Below are positions 3,562-49,119 of a DNA stretch of 49,119 bases, one piece after another. The position numbers and the translations under genes are program-made. The stretch spans positions 1 to 49,119 of IMG/VR virus record IMGVR_UViG_3300050821_006554. One strand, given 5' to 3'. The notes under the pieces are model-generated. The model was not told the origin of the DNA and did not search any database. It worked only from the letters and a program-made list of their open reading frames with translations. The number at the start of each line of letters is the position of its first letter. Position 1 is the first letter of the stretch. This stretch comes from a virus.

Positions 3562-3610
3562 GAAACGCGGCAATGACGCTGCGCAAAAGGGAAAAAGGAA
3601 CTTCCGAAAA
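3562..3610 (+). promoter_or_regulatory. two-hairpin leader, copy A
   Basis: Most divergent of four related leaders. GAAAC then stem GCGGC (3567-3571), 6-base loop, GCTGC (3578-3582, one G-U pair), an A-rich linker, then AAGGAACTTCC in which the Shine-Dalgarno GGAA can pair with the TTCC after it, then CGAAAA and the ATG of the DUF932 gene. Confidence 0.6.
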
Positions 3611-4627
3611 ATGGCACACAACATTGATATGACGGGCGGGCGGGCGAATATCGCGTTCATGGGCTCGCGCAAGGACATCTGGCATCAATTGGGAACCGAA
3701 ATGGCTCCTGGTATGTCGATTGAAGATTGGGCCGTCGCGGCCGGTCTTAATTGGCAAGCGATTAAAAGCCCCGCGCGGCTTTCACTTCATGGTCCCGAAT
3801 TCGCGCATTTATCGGAAGCGGAACGCGCGGCAATTGTGCCGGATCGTTTCGACATTGTGCGCAGCGATAATGGGCATCCGCTAGGCTATGCATCGAACGT
3901 GTATCAGCCTTGCCAACCTCGCGACGTTCTTTCGTGGTTCCAACAATATATCGGAGTCGATGATAGGTTTTCGATTGACGTTGCGGGCTCGCTGAAAAAC
4001 GGGGAAATCATTTGGGCAACGGCCGGTTATAATGGCGATATCTCCGTGGCGGGCGATAAGCATCGCGCGCGCCTTTTGATGACGACAACGTTTGACGGCT
4101 CAGGCGCGACAATCAACCAAGCAACCATGACTCGGACGGTCTGTGAAAATACGCTCCGCGCCTCTTTGAGCGACAAGCGCGCGATTGTGAAAACCCGGCA
4201 CAATACGAAATTTGACGCGCGCGCCGTTGGCAAGGAATTGGGCGCCATCGCGCAAGGCTTTGCCGAATTTAAGGCAATGGGCGACGCTATGGGCTCCGTC
4301 CATATGTCCGAACGTGACACGGTAGCGTTTTTCAAAGCTTTGCTGGACATCCCATTCGATGCAACGTCTGCCGATATCAGCGGCAAGAAACGCAATGCGT
4401 TCGATGCTTTGGCGAACGCCTATGAAGTGACGCTAAACGAAGGGACTCCAGCTTGCACGCAGTGGACGGCGCTTAACGCGGTAACGCGCTATGTAGATCA
4501 CGACAAGAACGTGAAAGGCGACGACAAAGCGGAGTCGCGTTTTCTTTCGTCCAATTTTGGATCGGGCGCGGCCATGAAGGCTAAAGCGATTGGCCTTTTG
4601 ATGCCGCGTCTTGCGGTAGCGGCTTAA
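3611..4627 (+). CDS. DUF932 / TIGR03299 phage-plasmid protein
   Basis: 338 residues. Opens with MAHNIDMTGGRANIAFMG and carries the family's usual features: WHQLGT near residue 25, an SPA...SDN...YQP block near 55-105, and the central VCENTLRAS segment near 180. The family is widespread in phages and plasmids; its biochemical role is unknown. The start agrees with the family's usual beginning. An in-frame ATG 37 codons upstream (3500) has a stronger Shine-Dalgarno (GGAGG, 8-base gap), so a longer form is possible and would translate through leader copy A. First gene of the early plus-strand block. Confidence 0.85.
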   Translation: MAHNIDMTGGRANIAFMGSRKDIWHQLGTEMAPGMSIEDWAVAAGLNWQAIKSPARLSLHGPEFAHLSEAERAAIVPDRFDIVRSDNGHPLGYASNVYQPCQPRDVLSWFQQYIGVDDRFSIDVAGSLKNGEIIWATAGYNGDISVAGDKHRARLLMTTTFDGSGATINQATMTRTVCENTLRASLSDKRAIVKTRHNTKFDARAVGKELGAIAQGFAEFKAMGDAMGSVHMSERDTVAFFKALLDIPFDATSADISGKKRNAFDALANAYEVTLNEGTPACTQWTALNAVTRYVDHDKNVKGDDKAESRFLSSNFGSGAAMKAKAIGLLMPRLAVAA

Positions 4628-4691
4628 TCCCGTTTGGCGGCTCATTGGACTCGGTTAAGCGCCGAGTCCCTTGACCTGCAAATGGGTGCGG

Positions 4692-4737
4692 GAAACGCGG
4701 CTTAAGAGATGCCGCAAAATAACGGAGTGACTCCGAA
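4692..4737 (+). promoter_or_regulatory. two-hairpin leader, copy B
   Basis: GAAACGCGGC, 9-base loop, GCCGC (stem 4697-4701 with 4711-4715), then AAAATAA and the perfect 13-base palindrome CGGAGTGACTCCG (4723-4735), which contains the Shine-Dalgarno and ends two bases before the ATG. Confidence 0.75.
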
Positions 4738-5112
4738 ATGAAACTTTCCTTTGACGAACCGTTGAAGCTTGCCACGGGCGGCAATGGCGGTGGGTTAGTT
4801 CCGCCCGAACGTCGCGCCTTTGCCACGCCACGGCCGGACAATAACGGCGCTAGACGCGAACAAGAACCGGAACCTATTGCCGCGCCCGCGCCAGCTCCTA
4901 CGCCTAACGCAATCGCGCGCAAGGCAAAGCTCCTACGCAAGCTCATGCGCCGCATACCGCGCGCGCGTATGGCAAAAGAGCTTGCCGAATTCCGCGCCGG
5001 TCTCGCCGCGTGGCAAGCAAGGCAACCGGGTTACGATCCGCACCTAATGGCGCGACGCGCGCACGAGTCCAAAATCCGCGCGGCATTTCGCGCCAAGCAC
5101 AAGGGAGTCTGA
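4738..5112 (+). CDS. hypothetical basic protein
   Basis: 124 residues: a flexible N-terminal half with a PEPIAAPAPAPTP linker, then a strongly basic helical half (KAKLLRKLMRRIPRARMAKELAEF, AFRAKHKG). No family recognised; the basic helices suggest nucleic-acid contact. First gene after leader copy B and four bases upstream of the next gene. Confidence 0.7.
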   Translation: MKLSFDEPLKLATGGNGGGLVPPERRAFATPRPDNNGARREQEPEPIAAPAPAPTPNAIARKAKLLRKLMRRIPRARMAKELAEFRAGLAAWQARQPGYDPHLMARRAHESKIRAAFRAKHKGV

Positions 5113-5116
5113 GTCC

Positions 5117-5644
5117 ATGTCGGAAGAAATCGAAAAAGAATTCGGCTTTTTAATTCAGTCTGAAATGAAATACGGAACGCAATATTTGAGCGCAAGCCTT
5201 ATCGGCCGCGAAAATGGGAAGGAATACCCCAACGGCATCAGTTCCGACACATACGGCGCGAAATATGCTTTGGACGGACTCACGCTTCGTGGATTCCTTT
5301 CGCGTTGGAAATTGGAGGAACCCAATTTTCTGTTGCACGATCCAGAATATAGGGACGTGCATGTGGATAGGCGCAACGTGCATTTAATGGCGAAAACGCT
5401 TGATAAAATCACGAAGCGAATCCAAGCGGATGGCGCGCGTGAACCCGGCGAAATTTTCCTCGCAATGGCACGCGCGCTTAAGCTTTCCTTCGTGGTCGAA
5501 AAAAACAAGCGGAGTCCGTCCCATGGCTCCTCATGGTCCGATTCCGATTGGGTTTGGCACGATATCCCGAGCGGCAAGAATCTCTTTGTCGCGCGGATTC
5601 GGGAATTGTTGGACGAAGCGAAAGGCGCAACGGTCGCGGCATGA
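5117..5644 (+). CDS. hypothetical protein
   Basis: 175 residues, mixed alpha/beta, no motif recognised. Its N-terminal half has many aromatic residues (FGFLIQSEMKYGTQYLS, NFLLHDPEYRDVH). Starts four bases after the previous gene and its TGA overlaps the next ATG (ATGA), so the two are translationally coupled. Confidence 0.7.
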   Translation: MSEEIEKEFGFLIQSEMKYGTQYLSASLIGRENGKEYPNGISSDTYGAKYALDGLTLRGFLSRWKLEEPNFLLHDPEYRDVHVDRRNVHLMAKTLDKITKRIQADGAREPGEIFLAMARALKLSFVVEKNKRSPSHGSSWSDSDWVWHDIPSGKNLFVARIRELLDEAKGATVAA

Positions 5645-5820
5645 CTTGGGTAACAAACGATCCAGAATGGGCGGCAAAGCTTAAAGCGGCCGACGCACGC
5701 TATGAGGCGGCAAAGCTTGCCGCGTCTAGCCTGTGTCTTGCCGATAAGGTTTCCGCATTGCGCGCGGCAAAGCATGAACGCGCGGAGGCGTATCGGGCAA
5801 TTATTGAAACGGAGGCGTGA
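5641..5820 (+). CDS. small helical hypothetical protein
   Basis: 59 residues, almost all helix-forming and rich in Ala, Lys and Glu (KAADARYEAAKLAASS, AKHERAEAYRAIIE). The ATG start overlaps the upstream stop; an open extension upstream lies inside the preceding gene and is ignored. No function assigned. Confidence 0.65.
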   Translation: MTWVTNDPEWAAKLKAADARYEAAKLAASSLCLADKVSALRAAKHERAEAYRAIIETEA

Positions 5821-5877
5821 TTCCAGCGCATTGCCCGTGCCACGCGCGCGGGCCTTGCGATGCAATCCTGCATCATA

Positions 5878-5918
5878 GCGGCACAAATGCCGCACTGTAA
5901 CGGAAGGACTCCGAACCT
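5878..5918 (+). promoter_or_regulatory. two-hairpin leader, copy C
   Basis: GCGGC, 6-base loop ACAAAT, GCCGC (5878-5893), then ACTGTAA and CGGAAGGACTCCG (5901-5913), where CGGA pairs with TCCG around the Shine-Dalgarno, then AACCT and the ATG. Lies in a 98-base gap between genes. Confidence 0.75.
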
Positions 5919-6440
5919 ATGAATATGAACAACTTAGCGGCACAAATTGCGGAAGCGGAAGCGTGCGGCAATGCGCAGTTATTGGCCGATATCGCGCGGC
6001 AATTGCTTGAGCGCCCTAGCGCGCCTCCCACAACGCGGAAACGCAAGGCGACGGCCGGACATGACGCGGCGGAATTTTGGACGCGCACGGAGCGCCTAGC
6101 GGCCGGTCTCGCGCCTATAAAAGACGGCAAAATAAGCGGCGGTAAATATCGCTGGGTTCTTGTCGAATTCGAGAACGGAGTCCGCATGGTGACGGGCCAA
6201 TATCCGCGCGTGAAGGAACCTGAAAGCTTGGCTCCGTCCATAATCAGCGCGCGCGCGCGGTATCTTGGCATTTTGTCCGGCCGCGTTCTTGACGCTGCGC
6301 ACGCACATAATGTGCCGCAAGTTATAAATGCGCGCGTCTTGACGGAAGTGGAGGCGGAAATGGAGCGCCGCCCATGCATGCGCCAACGCGCGGCGCTTGA
6401 GGCGTTCGCGCCTATCGCCAAAGTGGAGGGCGGACAATGA
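5919..6440 (+). CDS. hypothetical protein
   Basis: 173 residues. An Ala-rich helix (residues 5-30), a Pro/Lys linker, then a beta-rich middle (KYRWVLVEFENGVRMVTGQYP) and helical C-terminus. No family recognised. It follows leader copy C and its stop overlaps the next start as ATGA. Confidence 0.7.
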   Translation: MNMNNLAAQIAEAEACGNAQLLADIARQLLERPSAPPTTRKRKATAGHDAAEFWTRTERLAAGLAPIKDGKISGGKYRWVLVEFENGVRMVTGQYPRVKEPESLAPSIISARARYLGILSGRVLDAAHAHNVPQVINARVLTEVEAEMERRPCMRQRAALEAFAPIAKVEGGQ

Positions 6441-6655
6441 CTCGGGCTGAAAAGATCGCGCACAATCGCGCGGAAGCTCGCATCGAGCGCGCCTATACCG
6501 CGCGATGCCAGGGCGTTCAAATTTCGATTATGAAAATTCCCGACGTTTTCAAGTTCGGGCATCGCGTAATCGCGGAAGGCGCGGACGATGCCACGTTGGG
6601 CGACAAAATCGCCGCATACGTCGCGGAAATCACCAAAGCGGAGTCGGGCAAATGA
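6437..6655 (+). CDS. small hypothetical protein
   Basis: 72 residues: a charged N-terminal helix followed by a compact C-terminal part (IPDVFKFGHRVIAEGADDA, LGDKIAAYVAEI). The ending AAYVAEITKAESGK resembles the AKAESSQ and AKAEGGQ endings of neighbouring small genes. ATGA overlaps on both sides. Function unknown. Confidence 0.65.
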   Translation: MTRAEKIAHNRAEARIERAYTARCQGVQISIMKIPDVFKFGHRVIAEGADDATLGDKIAAYVAEITKAESGK

Positions 6656-7089
6656 GCGCATTTTTAATCGAAGAAGAAACGATGCAACGAGTCGCAATCG
6701 GCTTCTTGCTGGCAACCATGACTCGGGACCAAGAGCCAGCATCCGCCGAACGCGTGACGGAGACCGGCGCGCAATTTTACGCCATGAATTGTAGCGCCTT
6801 GGTCGAGCGCTATCAGTCGCGCGCGTTTGAATATTTCGGCTTTACCGATCCACCGAGTCCGCCGCTTAAGGAAATGCGTTGGGGCAATATCGTCCACTAT
6901 CACACGGACGCTTATTCTATTGATGAATTGGTGCAGATTTACAAATCAGTGCTTTGCTTCCTGTACCAATGCGCGGAAGGCGGCGTCGTTGAATCCGACC
7001 TGTTCAAACGTGTCGAGGACGCATCGCGTGTGCTCGCGTGTCGCATCGTGGATAGGCTTCCGGCATATGAGGCCGCGTTATGGGGTTGA
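6652..7089 (+). CDS. hypothetical protein
   Basis: 145 residues, mostly helical, with an aromatic middle (AFEYFGFTDPPSPPLKEMRWG) and a Cys/Leu-rich helix (LCFLYQCAEGG). The start is the ATG overlapping the previous TGA; the frame is open further upstream inside that gene. No family recognised. Confidence 0.65.
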   Translation: MSAFLIEEETMQRVAIGFLLATMTRDQEPASAERVTETGAQFYAMNCSALVERYQSRAFEYFGFTDPPSPPLKEMRWGNIVHYHTDAYSIDELVQIYKSVLCFLYQCAEGGVVESDLFKRVEDASRVLACRIVDRLPAYEAALWG

Positions 7090-7247
7090 CCCACCGCGAC
7101 CGCGCGCGCCGTAGCGCCATCATCCGCGAGCTGTCGGACCTATCCCGCAACGGATGGAGCCAGGCGCGCCCCTGCGATTATCAGCCGCTAGAGCGCGAAT
7201 TGGAGGCGCTGAACGCAAAAACGCTGACTCCAGGGAAACGCGGCTAA
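7080..7247 (+). CDS. small hypothetical protein
   Basis: 55 residues beginning MGLTHRDRARRSAIIRELSD, basic at first and then NGWSQARPCDYQPLERELEAL. The ATG lies 10 bases inside the preceding gene, the overlap style of this operon. Its TAA falls in the loop of the first hairpin of leader copy D. Confidence 0.55.
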   Translation: MGLTHRDRARRSAIIRELSDLSRNGWSQARPCDYQPLERELEALNAKTLTPGKRG

Positions 7248-7279
7248 CTTGCCGCAAAACAACGGAAGGAACTCCGACA
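7233..7279 (+). promoter_or_regulatory. two-hairpin leader, copy D
   Basis: GGGAAACGCGGC, 6-base loop TAACTT, GCCGC (stem 7240-7244 with 7251-7255), AAAACAA, then CGGAAGGAACTCCG (7263-7276) sequestering the Shine-Dalgarno, ACA and the ATG. Closest to copy B over the whole length. Confidence 0.75.
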
Positions 7280-7693
7280 ATGCAATTCCCTCGCATCCAC
7301 CTAAACGGCTCTCACGGGCCGACTCTGTTGGCGCAATATCTTGAAGCGACAACCGCCGCAAGCGAAGCGCTCAAGCTGTTGCTCGCCATCGACGTAAACG
7401 GGCGGGACTATTATGTAATTTCGCCCAACGCGGCGAACGTCGCAATGGTCGAGCATAGCGCCCGCTGCGCGGCGCTGCGCGCAATCTTCAATGACCTCTG
7501 CGCCATTGCCGACAATATCGACTCGCAAGTAGAGGCACGCAAAGCGCCCGCGCCCGATACGGTTAAGGCGGAATTGCTCGCGGCGCTCAAGGCCCTTCTA
7601 TTTGACTGTGAACACGGTAACGGCGCGGCCACATGGGAAAGCCACAAAGGCCAAGCGCGCGACGCTATCGCCAAAGCGGAGTCGAGCCAATGA
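7280..7693 (+). CDS. hypothetical protein
   Basis: 137 residues. Starts behind leader copy D; the frame is open 42 codons upstream but the leader fixes the start. A helical, Ala-rich protein with a small beta element (VNGRDYYVISPNAANVAMV), ending in AATWESHKGQARDAIAKAESSQ-like sequence shared with other small early proteins. No known family. Confidence 0.7.
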   Translation: MQFPRIHLNGSHGPTLLAQYLEATTAASEALKLLLAIDVNGRDYYVISPNAANVAMVEHSARCAALRAIFNDLCAIADNIDSQVEARKAPAPDTVKAELLAALKALLFDCEHGNGAATWESHKGQARDAIAKAESSQ

Positions 7694-8120: not shown

Positions 8121-8447
8121 ATGAGCGCGACACATACGCCGGGGCCGTGGTCCTACGGATGCACGGACAAACGACACAAAGAGTTCGCCATTATGGCGGA
8201 AGGCGGCAAAGTCGGCGCTGTGTTTGCCGGGTTCGGCGCGCATTTCGATTGGGAACAATCTGAAGCTAACGCGCGCCTGATGGCCGCTTCGCCGGAATTA
8301 CTCGCGGCGCTGAAGGGATTGGAACAAACTTTGCGCATTGCCGCGCACGGCACCGGAAGCGCGTCACAGGCCGATTGGAGAGACTTCGCGCGGGCGCACG
8401 CCGACGCTTGCCGTGATGCCGTTGCCAAAGCGGAGGGCGGGCAATGA
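8121..8447 (+). CDS. HTPGPW-type phage hypothetical protein
   Basis: 108 residues. Has the two signatures of a common but uncharacterised phage family: THTPGPWSYG at the start and SEANARLMAASPELLAALK in the middle. 81 bases without a gene precede it, holding a weak CCTGG/CCAGG inverted repeat and an AAAGGGCAA purine stretch. Its stop overlaps the next ATG. Confidence 0.75.
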   Translation: MSATHTPGPWSYGCTDKRHKEFAIMAEGGKVGAVFAGFGAHFDWEQSEANARLMAASPELLAALKGLEQTLRIAAHGTGSASQADWRDFARAHADACRDAVAKAEGGQ

Positions 8448-17388: not shown

Positions 17389-17718
17389 GTGCCCGTGCCG
17401 AAGCCCGGTTATTACGTCTTGCTTGGAAAGCTGGCCGTTCCCGAGCCTGACGTAATGAAGTGGGCGCATTGGTTGGGCACGGCCAATCGCCACGTCGCCC
17501 AAGATAAAATCGGCGGCGTTATGGTGAGCACGATTTTCCTTGGCTTGGATCATTCGCACGGACGCGGCGAATTTCCCGTCCTGTTTGAGACCATGGTTTT
17601 TCGTGGCGGCGATCCACAAGAACAGGACCGCTACGAAACATGGGAGCAAGCCGAAGCGGGCCACAAGGCCATGGTCGCGCTCATTCGTGCCGAGCTGATC
17701 GCAAAGGCCAAAGCATGA
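17389..17718 (+). CDS. conserved phage hypothetical protein
   Basis: 109 residues. Contains VSTIFLGLDHSHGRGEFPVLFETMVFRGG, a block common to a widely distributed but uncharacterised phage family, followed by YETWEQAEAGHKAMV, which is also typical. GTG start; a second GTG two codons later is equally possible. ATGA overlap with the next gene. Confidence 0.75.
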   Translation: MPVPKPGYYVLLGKLAVPEPDVMKWAHWLGTANRHVAQDKIGGVMVSTIFLGLDHSHGRGEFPVLFETMVFRGGDPQEQDRYETWEQAEAGHKAMVALIRAELIAKAKA

Positions 17719-18236
17719 GCGACCGGCATTGCGGGACCTGCACGCTTTGTTGCCGAGTCCTGCCCGTCAAGGAGCTGCACAAGGACGCGGGCGTGCGCTG
17801 CCAGCATCAACGGCACACCGGCTGCGCCATCTATGCGACCAAGCCCAGCGGGTGCTCTATTTGGTCCTGCGTGTGGCTGACCGGGAAAGACACGGAAGAT
17901 TTGGCGCGGCCGGATCGGTCCCATTACGTCATTGACCCGATGCCGGATTACATCACGACGGTGAACAACGAAACCGGGCACCGCGAGAACATCCCGATTG
18001 TCCAAATCTGGATTGACCCGCGCTTTCCCGACGCGCACCGGGACGAACATTTGCGGGCCTATCTGTCGCGGCGCGAAATACCGGCGCTGATCCGCTACAA
18101 CGCGACGGCGGCTATGGTGCTGTTCCCGCCAGAATGCGTCCACGATAATCAATGGCATGAAGTGACCACGAACCATGGGACCAAACAGCACGATTTCGCG
18201 GACATTCACCGCGTAGTAACGGGGCAATCACTATGA
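17715..18236 (+). CDS. YkgJ-like cysteine-cluster protein
   Basis: 173 residues. The first 50 hold CGTCTLCC, GVRCQHQ, GCAIYATKPSGCSIWSCVW, the cysteine order of the YkgJ family of presumed zinc/iron-cluster proteins; the rest is alpha/beta without motif. Phage copies are common and of unknown function. Start fixed by ATGA overlap with the gene before. Confidence 0.8.
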   Translation: MSDRHCGTCTLCCRVLPVKELHKDAGVRCQHQRHTGCAIYATKPSGCSIWSCVWLTGKDTEDLARPDRSHYVIDPMPDYITTVNNETGHRENIPIVQIWIDPRFPDAHRDEHLRAYLSRREIPALIRYNATAAMVLFPPECVHDNQWHEVTTNHGTKQHDFADIHRVVTGQSL

Positions 18237-22460: not shown

Positions 22461-22636
22461 GGGCGCATTACATTTTCATTCTGGATGAGCTGTTGAACCG
22501 GAAGCCGATAGTCGCGCCGGACAATATCAATGGCGATGTGACGCCGCGCTTTGCCTGGAATGCGGGGTATCTAGCCGCGATTGAAGCCATACTGGAAGCG
22601 TTTCAATCGAACCCTGACAAAGACTCCGTGCAATGA
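22457..22636 (+). CDS. small hypothetical protein
   Basis: 59 residues, MRAHYIFILDELLNRKPIVA then NAGYLAAIEAILEAFQS; a small alpha/beta fold. ATGA overlaps link it to the exonuclease gene and to the next gene. Not recognised. Confidence 0.65.
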   Translation: MRAHYIFILDELLNRKPIVAPDNINGDVTPRFAWNAGYLAAIEAILEAFQSNPDKDSVQ

Positions 22637-35377: not shown

Positions 35378-35704
35378 CTATTTCGGCTGTGCCAAATTGA
35401 CAACCACGTAACGCACGCCGTAGCCGGGAACGGCAACGATAATCACGGCCTTTCCTGGCGGCGTACCGGGCGGCAACGGAGGCCAAATCGAACCTGGCGG
35501 CGGATCGGGCGGCACGATGGGCGGATTGACTTCTGGCGGGTAGGGCTGACCGGGCGGCAACACGATGGGATGACTTGCCATCGGCGGCGGGCCATCGGGC
35601 GGCGGCGTGGGCAAGGGATTCGACGGATGCGGCGGTTGAGGCCACACACCGGGACGGTCGCCGCCAAGATTCGAGCCGTCAACCGGAATGACGAATGCCA
35701 GCAT
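35378..35704 (-). CDS. proline-rich virion-region protein
   Basis: 108 residues; residues 18-85 are about half Pro with Gly (PQPPHPSNPLPTPPPDGPPP), then a beta-like VIIVAVPGYGVRYVVVNLAQ end. Such Pro-rich linkers are common between tail and ejection genes in podoviruses. No enzymatic motif. Confidence 0.65.
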   Translation of the reverse strand: MLAFVIPVDGSNLGGDRPGVWPQPPHPSNPLPTPPPDGPPPMASHPIVLPPGQPYPPEVNPPIVPPDPPPGSIWPPLPPGTPPGKAVIIVAVPGYGVRYVVVNLAQPK

Positions 35705-35744
35705 AATGGTTCTCCTTCGTTTGCTACCGATGGCGGGATTGCCA

Positions 35745-37331
35745 TCATTCGTAACTTTCAGCGTCTACGGTGATTTCGGTCGAAAAGGCGTGTAGCTCCA
35801 AATCCTGATCGGCGCTGTTGTTGATAAATTGGAACGCAATCGTGCGGAACGTTCCGCCTTCCTCTGCGCATCGCGTGTACATATTCACAGAACGCCCGCC
35901 GCCAAGAATGTCCGTCCCAAGCAAGAATGAGCCCAGCAAGACCGCGCCGGTTTGCACCATATTGATTTGCTGCAATGGCTGATCGTCGCGCGTCCAGCCG
36001 AAGAACAAATCCCCGCCTGTCCGTGGCTGAATAGTGACCGATGCCCCTTCAAGGGTCTTGAAGCGATACGGCACCTGATAATCGAAGTCCGGGGTTTCGA
36101 CGTGGAACGGAATGCCGGTCGTGCCGTCGATATTGCGCGGCGTTGCGCCAAGCATCCGCAAGATGCCGTCCACGCCGCCCGCCAATAGGGTTCGGATTTT
36201 GAATTGCCCGGTGCCGATGCCGCTCGCAATCGAAGCGATATCGCGGAAGGCCGTCCAATTCGCCCAGCGCGGCGGATCGAAGCGGTAATCCAGCATCAGC
36301 ACGCAATTGTTCAGCGGCGCTGCATCCACCGGTAGGGTGAAGATCAAAAGGCTATAGGCAGGCCAATTCGTCACCTGCGCATAGCGGAGCGATGGGATAT
36401 AGACGTGCTCGCGCATCCACGATTGAATTTCCCTGGAAAGCGCCGACTCGTTGAAATCGCCAAAGCTTGCCGTGGCCGAAAGCGTATGAATCGAAGCATC
36501 CGACCACTGGAAAACCACATCGTTCGCGTAGGCCGCGATAGAGCGATGGTTAGCCGCGCCGATGCTGGTCGCAAAGACTTCATGGGCGAAATCCGTGGGC
36601 GAGCTGCCGGTGATCCGGTGAATCGAGCCCTTATAGGGGCCTTTGAAAACCCATAGGTCGTCACGATGGCTGATGATGCCGGTAATGCGGTCGCCATCGG
36701 CCGGGTCCAAGTCAATAAAGCCGGAACCGGCACCCACCCAATCCGCGCCGTTCAACGTCACGCAATAATACAACCGCGATGGCTGCGTATGATCGCCAGC
36801 CGCCCAAACCTTATTTTTGTGGACCACGGAAAAGGCGAAGGTCGGCGGGGAGCCGCCCAGGTTCGACGTGGACGCCGCTACGCCGTCCCAAGATTGGGGG
36901 ACATCGCCGCCCGAATCGTTGGAAATAATGCAGACGCCTTCAAACATCGTGTAACAGGGCACCGCGCCCACTGTGAGGCCGGTTTTGATGTCAACAAAAT
37001 TGTTGTCCGCGTTGTCCTTTTTGATCTTGGTCCCGACATGCATCAAACGGTGTTGCACGGGTGCAGGCGCGCCGCCGCCCGTAACGATGAACCAAGCATC
37101 GAACACGCCGAGGATGGCCGCGCCGCCTTCCAATACCGGTGTGTTGATAACGCGCCCCGGCATTTTGTGCGGCCCGCCGTCCAGCTCATAGGTGACGTTT
37201 TCCGCGACCGTGAGGAACGGCACCGCGACGATTCCACCGGGGGCAATCGGGATCGAAACCGAATGGCCGAAATCGGTCGCCCAGCCGCCCTGGAAAATGT
37301 GCTTGAGGAAGCGCGAACGGGTGCTCACCAA
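35745..37331 (-). CDS. P22 gp10-like tail accessory protein
   Basis: 528 residues, beta-rich throughout with repeated strands of the kind seen in P22 tail-needle-base protein gp10 (phage stabilisation protein): GGWATDFGHS near the start, PQSWDGVAAST, GDRITGIISHRDDLWVFK, SNDVVFQWS-like repeats suggesting a propeller. It closes the portal channel with the adaptor encoded just upstream, with which it overlaps by 7 bases. Confidence 0.75.
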   Translation of the reverse strand: MVSTRSRFLKHIFQGGWATDFGHSVSIPIAPGGIVAVPFLTVAENVTYELDGGPHKMPGRVINTPVLEGGAAILGVFDAWFIVTGGGAPAPVQHRLMHVGTKIKKDNADNNFVDIKTGLTVGAVPCYTMFEGVCIISNDSGGDVPQSWDGVAASTSNLGGSPPTFAFSVVHKNKVWAAGDHTQPSRLYYCVTLNGADWVGAGSGFIDLDPADGDRITGIISHRDDLWVFKGPYKGSIHRITGSSPTDFAHEVFATSIGAANHRSIAAYANDVVFQWSDASIHTLSATASFGDFNESALSREIQSWMREHVYIPSLRYAQVTNWPAYSLLIFTLPVDAAPLNNCVLMLDYRFDPPRWANWTAFRDIASIASGIGTGQFKIRTLLAGGVDGILRMLGATPRNIDGTTGIPFHVETPDFDYQVPYRFKTLEGASVTIQPRTGGDLFFGWTRDDQPLQQINMVQTGAVLLGSFLLGTDILGGGRSVNMYTRCAEEGGTFRTIAFQFINNSADQDLELHAFSTEITVDAESYE

Positions 37332-49036: not shown

Positions 49037-49119
49037 ATAGCACGCGCAGGGTGCGGGTTTTCTCTTTCCAGCTCTTATCCCAATTGCCGTCAATCAGGCA
49101 CATCTTGGGAATCCAACCC
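49037..49119. repeat. 83-bp terminal direct repeat (right copy)
   Basis: Identical to the first 83 bases. Closing the circle here gives 49,036 bp and restores one continuous terL frame except for the stop codon that straddles the join. Confidence 0.95.

Follow-up and report, generated by a model that had tools for sequence, protein, structure and literature searches.

A repeated two-hairpin leader at early gene starts of an uncultured phage and its relatives

The closest described systems to the one reported here are the start-associated sequences (SAS) and extended start-associated sequences (ESAS) of the cluster K mycobacteriophages, which are repeats at the start codons of several nonstructural genes and whose role is undefined (PMC3203893; PMC11373665; PMC12699233). 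They have been known since 2011 without an agreed function (PMC3203893). The element described below is a leader that occurs four times in the early block of an uncultured virus, IMG/VR record IMGVR_UViG_3300050821_006554; the whole stretch of 49,119 bases that was analyzed is referred to as the window. Each leader consists, in this order, of a 5-bp stem (stem 1, GCGGC/GCYGC), an A-rich linker, a small hairpin around the Shine-Dalgarno (SD) sequence (hairpin 2 or SD hairpin) and the ATG. The four leaders are a real shared element, and our preferred explanation, to which we give a probability of only about 0.4, is that in them a single cis-acting RNA start module recurs at the head of each early gene cluster.

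The leaders resemble SAS/ESAS in several respects. In both cases short repeats lie directly 5' of the start codons of several nonstructural, partly non-homologous genes, here within a few bases of the start codon and in a single orientation. The 3' part contains the SD sequence between complementary ends (GGG-ATAGGAG-CCC in SAS and CGGA-AGGAC-TCCG here), an inverted repeat lies upstream, the repeat usually follows an intergenic gap and each phage group has its own consensus. However, the 13-bp SAS consensus, GGGATAGGAGCCC, has no match in the window when up to two mismatches are allowed. The ESAS arms are 17 bp long and imperfect, whereas the arms here are 5 bp with a loop of 4-9 nt, and ESAS hold putative promoters with SigA-like hexamers; no promoter-like site turned up at the window leaders on the sense strand. 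The ESAS authors noted that departures in the arms do not support RNA pairing, whereas the changes in stem 1 keep it. The phages are different as well, and probably also the host phylum. Because the sequence is unrelated and because arm length, RNA pairing and putative promoters differ, the leader element is an analogue of SAS/ESAS and not a member.

Table 1. Leaders, their hairpins and the genes behind them in the window. R1 is a covariance model and G001 the nearest relative; both are described in the text.
Feature	Position	Strand	Sequence or product	Remarks
Leaders 1-4	3567-3610, 4697-4737, 5878-5918, 7240-7279	+		each directly 5' of ATG
Stem 1, copy 1	3567..3582	+	GCGGC-AATGAC-GCTGC	one G-U pair; R1 30.4 bits
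Stem 1, copy 2	4697..4715	+	GCGGC-TTAAGAGAT-GCCGC	9-nt loop; R1 21.8 bits
Stem 1, copy 3	5878..5893	+	GCGGC-ACAAAT-GCCGC	R1 33.8 bits
Stem 1, copy 4	7240..7255	+	GCGGC-TAACTT-GCCGC	R1 45.8 bits
SD hairpin, copy 1	3590..3605	+	GGAA-AAAGGAAC-TTCC	SD core within loop
SD hairpin, copy 2	4723..4735	+	CGGAG-TGA-CTCCG	sole window copy burying its SD
SD hairpin, copy 3	5901..5913	+	CGGA-AGGAC-TCCG	
SD hairpin, copy 4	7263..7276	+	CGGA-AGGAAC-TCCG	
Gene behind copy 1	3611..4627	+	DUF932 / phrog_1221 protein, 338 aa	PHROG 2.4e-57; Pfam PF06067 4.3e-40
Gene behind copy 2	4738..5112	+	124 aa, no assigned function	G001 orthologue 43%, with leader
Gene behind copy 3	5919..6440	+	173 aa, no assigned function	G001 orthologue 56%, with leader
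Gene behind copy 4	7280..7693	+	137 aa, no assigned function	no homologue found among relatives compared
Variant leader hairpin	35729..35746	-	GATGGC-AATCCC-GCCATC	ends 24 nt before ATG at 35704
Late gene behind variant leader	35378..35704	-	small proline-rich protein of 108 aa	with orthologue in G001

A preliminary description of this DNA had reported the stem, the A-rich linker and the SD hairpin before the genes at 3611, 4738, 5919 and 7280, with stem loops of six to nine bases (Table 1). Both the sequence and the folds bear this out. The stem 1 loops are 6, 9, 6 and 6 nt long, and single-strand folding of each leader gives exactly the two hairpins (z -2.6, -3.6, -3.0 and -4.5 for copies 1 to 4). 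Stem 1 ends 28, 22, 25 and 24 nt before the respective ATGs and is followed immediately by AAAA, GCAAAA or ACTG, and the SD hairpin ends 2-5 nt from the ATG; all four copies are on the sense strand. Stem 1 of copy 1 can be extended to 6 bp (3566-3583), and the preceding ORF (7081-7247) ends inside the loop of copy 4, which supplies its TAA stop.

The pattern of stem, linker and CGGA has three matches in the window, against 0.17 expected. A covariance model, R1, was built from three window leaders and six leaders of the nearest relative, G001, with the copy at 4738 left out; it recovers all four window copies (E 5e-12 to 2e-4), including the untrained one at 4738, and gives nothing else better than E 0.1 in the 49-kb window. 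No Rfam family matched any part of the window above its gathering threshold. An intrinsic terminator or attenuator was rejected, as none of the four stems came up in a sense-strand scan and no U tract follows stem 1. A lambda-type boxB or nut site, considered from the 5-bp stem, was also rejected, the loops being unconserved and the copies sitting at start codons.

G001 (contig IMGVR_UViG_3300046683_000394, 51 kb) has a primase 84% identical to that of the window and about 65-78% DNA identity across most aligned parts. Its early block holds six leader copies, three before the orthologues of 3611, 4738 and 5919 and three before genes that have no homologue behind the window leaders. Relatives might have kept the genes and lost the stems, but G001 keeps stem 1 at all three orthologous early genes. 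Indeed stem 1 is present in all ten leaders of the two phages, the deviations being U-A (GCGGT/ACCGC), U-G and G-U pairs, and the same 20-mer, GCGGCTAACTTGCCGCAAAA, is found before unrelated genes of the window phage and of G001. In a more distant phage, G014 (IMGVR_UViG_3300005529_000010, 65 kb), the DUF932 protein shares only 33% identity with that of the window. Three copies of the leader are present there; all have the same stem and an SD hairpin (CGGA/TCCG in two, AGGA/TCCT in one), and their stem loops are six bases long. The G014 copies lack a T run, so a minus-strand terminator (the SD hairpin and then TTNTTTT, read backwards) is not a general explanation. An inverted repeat, GATGC-AATCCT-GCATC, lies at 5859-5874, just 5' of leader 3, and a similar one, GATGC-AATCG-GCATC, precedes G001 leader r3215; the genes behind these two leaders are not homologous.

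The exact two-hairpin pattern occurs in 39 stretches across all of IMG/VR. Only the twin contig of the window and G014 have more than one match together with matches at real gene starts, and the remaining stretches look like chance. A pattern match in L019 has no start codon suitably placed behind the SD hairpin and is probably fortuitous. When gene starts were compared all against all in 30 contigs, the window phage and G001 alone had clear repeated leaders, and a few other contigs had start repeats that were weaker or of a different kind. Two other arrangements were seen among the phages compared. The DUF932 phage L093 (contig G015, also L116) has quite different strong hairpins at 2861, 4057 and 4514, with a shared tail like TAGAAAGGATAGC before the ATG, and these leaders are perhaps a parallel start module. 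In L130 and L138 (contig G029), a stretch like GGTATAATAGA recurs 30-45 nt before several starts, beside similar SD regions; these stretches are probably repeated promoters.

The changes within stem 1 point to RNA. In 15 stems with six-base loops, 98.7% of the cells are paired, and at three of the five pairs both sides vary. The covariation score was not matched in any of 500 shuffles, although several rows had been picked for having a hairpin, so that this set is supportive and not independent. Pairing survives U-A, A-U and G-U pairs, the loop length ranges from 4 to 9 nt and the distance to the start codon is narrow, and because of these features the element is best explained at the RNA level. 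The earlier statement that stems are kept while loops differ stands, whereas the G-U pair of copy 1 (GCGGC/GCTGC), which had been called compensating, is instead a tolerated wobble.

The second hairpin presents a more complicated picture. Complementarity around the SD sequence scores 29 in the four window copies, against 11.6 +/- 5.8 for shuffled sequences. Of 13 leaders, 11 have it, with a score of 70 against 31.9 +/- 9.5 for the set; in both cases none of 2000 shuffles reached the observed value. In G001 alone the complementarity is not significant (145 of 2000 shuffles), and hairpin 2 is absent from two of the six copies. Exchanging 3' parts among leaders likewise gave no significant covariation for hairpin 2. 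The G001 series CGG/CCG, AGG/CCT and TGG/CCA is suggestive, but stays a lead because of these two results.

In hairpin 2, it is mainly the loop that holds the SD core, AAGGA. In predicted folds the median unpaired probability of the core is 0.84 for 12 leaders and 0.47 for 129 other starts (p 0.03); as a set, the leaders also have less structure than those starts (minimum free energy -17.0 vs -20.5, p 0.007). The core is fully paired only at 4738 and mostly paired in three other leaders, namely r2631 and two of those of G014; pairing of the SD core in the predominant fold, which would mark an SD-sequestering switch or thermometer, was not found for the set as a whole. The preliminary description had the SD purines pairing with a following TCCG and took the leaders for a common RNA switch. 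A small hairpin is indeed present in all four copies (with TTCC in copy 1), but only that at 4738 buries the SD. A shared leader that is kept in relatives and is best explained at the RNA level remains of the proposed switch, whereas SD sequestration as a general property is not supported by the predicted folds, which leave most SD cores looped and more open than at other starts.

Each of the four copies heads a gene cluster in which the later genes overlap as ATGA or nearly abut; the exception is the DUF932 gene, which stands alone and whose G001 orthologue (79%) has the same leader. A terminator-like hairpin, GACTCGG-TTAAGCG-CCGAGTC, follows this gene at 4648-4668, and the G001 counterpart is GACTCGG-CCGGAA-CCGAGTC. 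The coupled early genes have a second repeated start module at 6632-6655, 7670-7693 and 8424-8447, in the 3' end of the preceding gene, which consists of CCAAAGCGGAG and then an ATGA overlap (AAAGCGGAGTCGGGCAAATGA and its relatives); there are three matches against 0.15 expected.

The preliminary description placed the element in the early block, and all four copies are there. However, a similar leader precedes a late gene on the minus strand (Table 1), and its orthologous leader in G001, at 22628, reads GGCGGC-AATTCC-GCCGTC; both partners of one pair differ, a compensatory change, and an A-U pair has become G-U. Because the late gene has the same architecture, the element class is not strictly early.

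Positions 1-83 and 49037-49119 of the window apparently repeat each other, and since another contig, IMGVR_UViG_3300021475_000099, crosses the two ends, the record is probably a complete genome, circular or terminally redundant. No nucleotide relatives were found among isolated phages, and the best DUF932 relatives listed from isolated phages are at most about 32% identical. The hosts of the element-bearing phages are probably alphaproteobacterial.

Stem 1 may reach beyond these three phages. Among the best non-member matches of R1 in 631 kb are the DUF932 leaders of three phages at a greater distance, L008, L007 and L009 (17.5, 17.2 and 13.2 bits). A stem of at least 5 bp ending 17-25 nt before the start, where there is a positional peak, is present in 14 of 44 non-redundant DUF932 leaders, against 2.5 +/- 1.5 in shuffled leaders (largest count in 300 shuffles, 7). 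The stem sequences vary widely (GGCCG/CGGCC, GCGCC/GGCGC, ACGGC/GCCGT and others). About a third of the distant DUF932 relatives thus have a stem at this place. A general leader derived from the host is not supported, as 98 host leaders from 400 kb of Rhodopseudomonas gene starts show no positional hairpin peak. The DUF932 relative in the Rhodopseudomonas genome is located in a provirus. Fourteen of 296 genomes of the Rhodopseudomonas family have single matches near 26-27 bits; about half of the ten inspected are real gene starts, and three represent one conserved coding stretch.

What might such a leader do? It probably marks or tunes the start of protein synthesis. Across copies, the distance from the end of stem 1 to the start codon is 19-28 nt, which corresponds roughly to the upstream edge of an initiating 30S subunit. 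We suggest that stem 1 would close the leader off from the RNA upstream of it, leaving the linker and SD single-stranded in a GC-rich polycistronic transcript, and that it may additionally protect the message against decay coming from upstream. The weak second hairpin would display or mildly tune the SD without locking it. Because the downstream genes overlap as ATGA or nearly abut, they could use translational coupling, and the module would be needed only by the first gene. A start module of this kind would require no dedicated ligand or protein, and the free sequence and length of the loops argue against loop recognition.

Leaders with comparable features exist in other systems. Hairpin-protected 5' leaders, such as the Escherichia coli ompA stem-loop, and translational-enhancer leaders, such as that of T7 gene 10, likewise have a stable hairpin or an A/U-rich stretch just 5' of an accessible SD; however, these are single and located at transcript 5' ends, whereas the module here is repeated at several internal starts. 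Hairpins that sequester the SD are found at T4 late genes on early transcripts and in RNA thermometers, and here too the SD purines can pair with a following complement. The pairing is weak, however, with the SD core mostly looped, and only copy 2 of the window resembles sequestration.

Several observations weigh against a purely structural start module. GCGG/CCGC is nearly invariant among the copies, beyond the need of a stem that only has to pair, which would fit recognition or recent duplication. The complementarity of hairpin 2 is above chance and is not needed by an insulator that leaves the SD open, and other early genes of the same phages lack the module. The accessibility comparison comes from predicted folds only. 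In addition, a stem at 14-22 nt precedes about 13% of generic genes in the same phages, a listing that includes several terminator-like leaders with a U tract after the stem, so that the DUF932 enrichment over this background is only about 2.4-fold.

The first two of these observations lead to the main rival explanation, which we regard as possible, if doubtful: the leader would be a common site bound by an RNA-binding protein of phage or host origin. This protein, a repressor or activator of translation, would coordinate the four early cistrons and recognize the GCGG/CCGC stem plus either the A-rich tail or the SD hairpin. The conservation of the stem sequence across both copies and phages would be expected of such a site, as would the occurrence of the same element before non-homologous genes, and the version of the SD hairpin is phage-specific (TTCC or TCCG in the window; CCG, CCT and CCA in G001), as if it tracked a factor. 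However, the loops of 4 to 9 nt have no common sequence, two of the six G001 copies are without hairpin 2, known RNA-binding families were not found among the proteins scanned and there is no shared candidate factor. A Cys-rich protein encoded at 17715-18236 (CGTCTLCC...C..H...GC.IY, phrog_9155) was present only in the window, G001 and G014 among the contigs compared first, but it was rejected as the regulator since eight other carriers show no significant element.

It is distinctly unlikely that the leader is an mRNA processing or stability element, in which stem 1 would be recognized by, or set a boundary for, RNase III, RNase E or a 3'-5' exonuclease and the early polycistronic RNA would be cut into units that each begin with a stem. 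The copies do sit at cluster borders, a second overlapping inverted repeat (TTACCGC...GCGGTAA) precedes G001 leader r2631 and the terminator-like hairpin after the first gene is present in both the window and G001. Their position is nevertheless tied to the start codon and not to the cluster ends, and 5 bp is too short for a classical RNase III site.

It seems quite improbable that the leader is an operator or promoter at the DNA level, as has been suggested for ESAS, its two GCGGC half-sites being separated by one helical turn. Most copies have exactly 6 bp between the arms (11 bp from centre to centre), the symmetric changes GCGGT/ACCGC and ACGGC/GCCGT also keep a DNA palindrome, and putative promoters occur in ESAS (PMC11373665). 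However, a site of this kind is less likely because the spacing varies (9 in copy 2 and 4 in one G001 copy), because the one-sided changes (copy 1, r2631 and the G001 late leader) are G-U wobbles that break the palindrome and not the RNA stem, and because a scan of the sense strand revealed no sigma-70-like promoter at the leaders; the fixed place beside the SD and the ATG would also be unexplained at the DNA level. Finally, the leaders may have no function and may have spread by recent duplication or recombination of an initiation region, with hairpins that are passive in GC-rich DNA, as shared flanks of the window copies (e.g., GAAAC before the stem) and the 20-mer common to two phages might suggest, but this is very improbable, given that stems remain paired where loops and flanks diverge, that the leader is kept at orthologous genes of the two related phages and in the phage with 33% protein identity, and that host gene starts have no such positional peak.

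A wider proposal is somewhat unlikely as a whole: a portable RNA start module, its loops varying freely and its SD hairpin differing from phage to phage, would have been copied to the heads of unrelated clusters, one putative host or phage factor would set the translation of an early regulon through it, and the system would be an independent RNA counterpart of SAS/ESAS in phages of probably alphaproteobacterial hosts.

In conclusion, the leaders described here would be an independent second case of start-associated repeats, in other phages, and as their pairing is kept through sequence change, this case points to the level of translation initiation. The leader is also a small, testable part of about 45 nt. 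If a trans-acting factor exists, a phage could use such leaders to control several early genes together at the RNA level.

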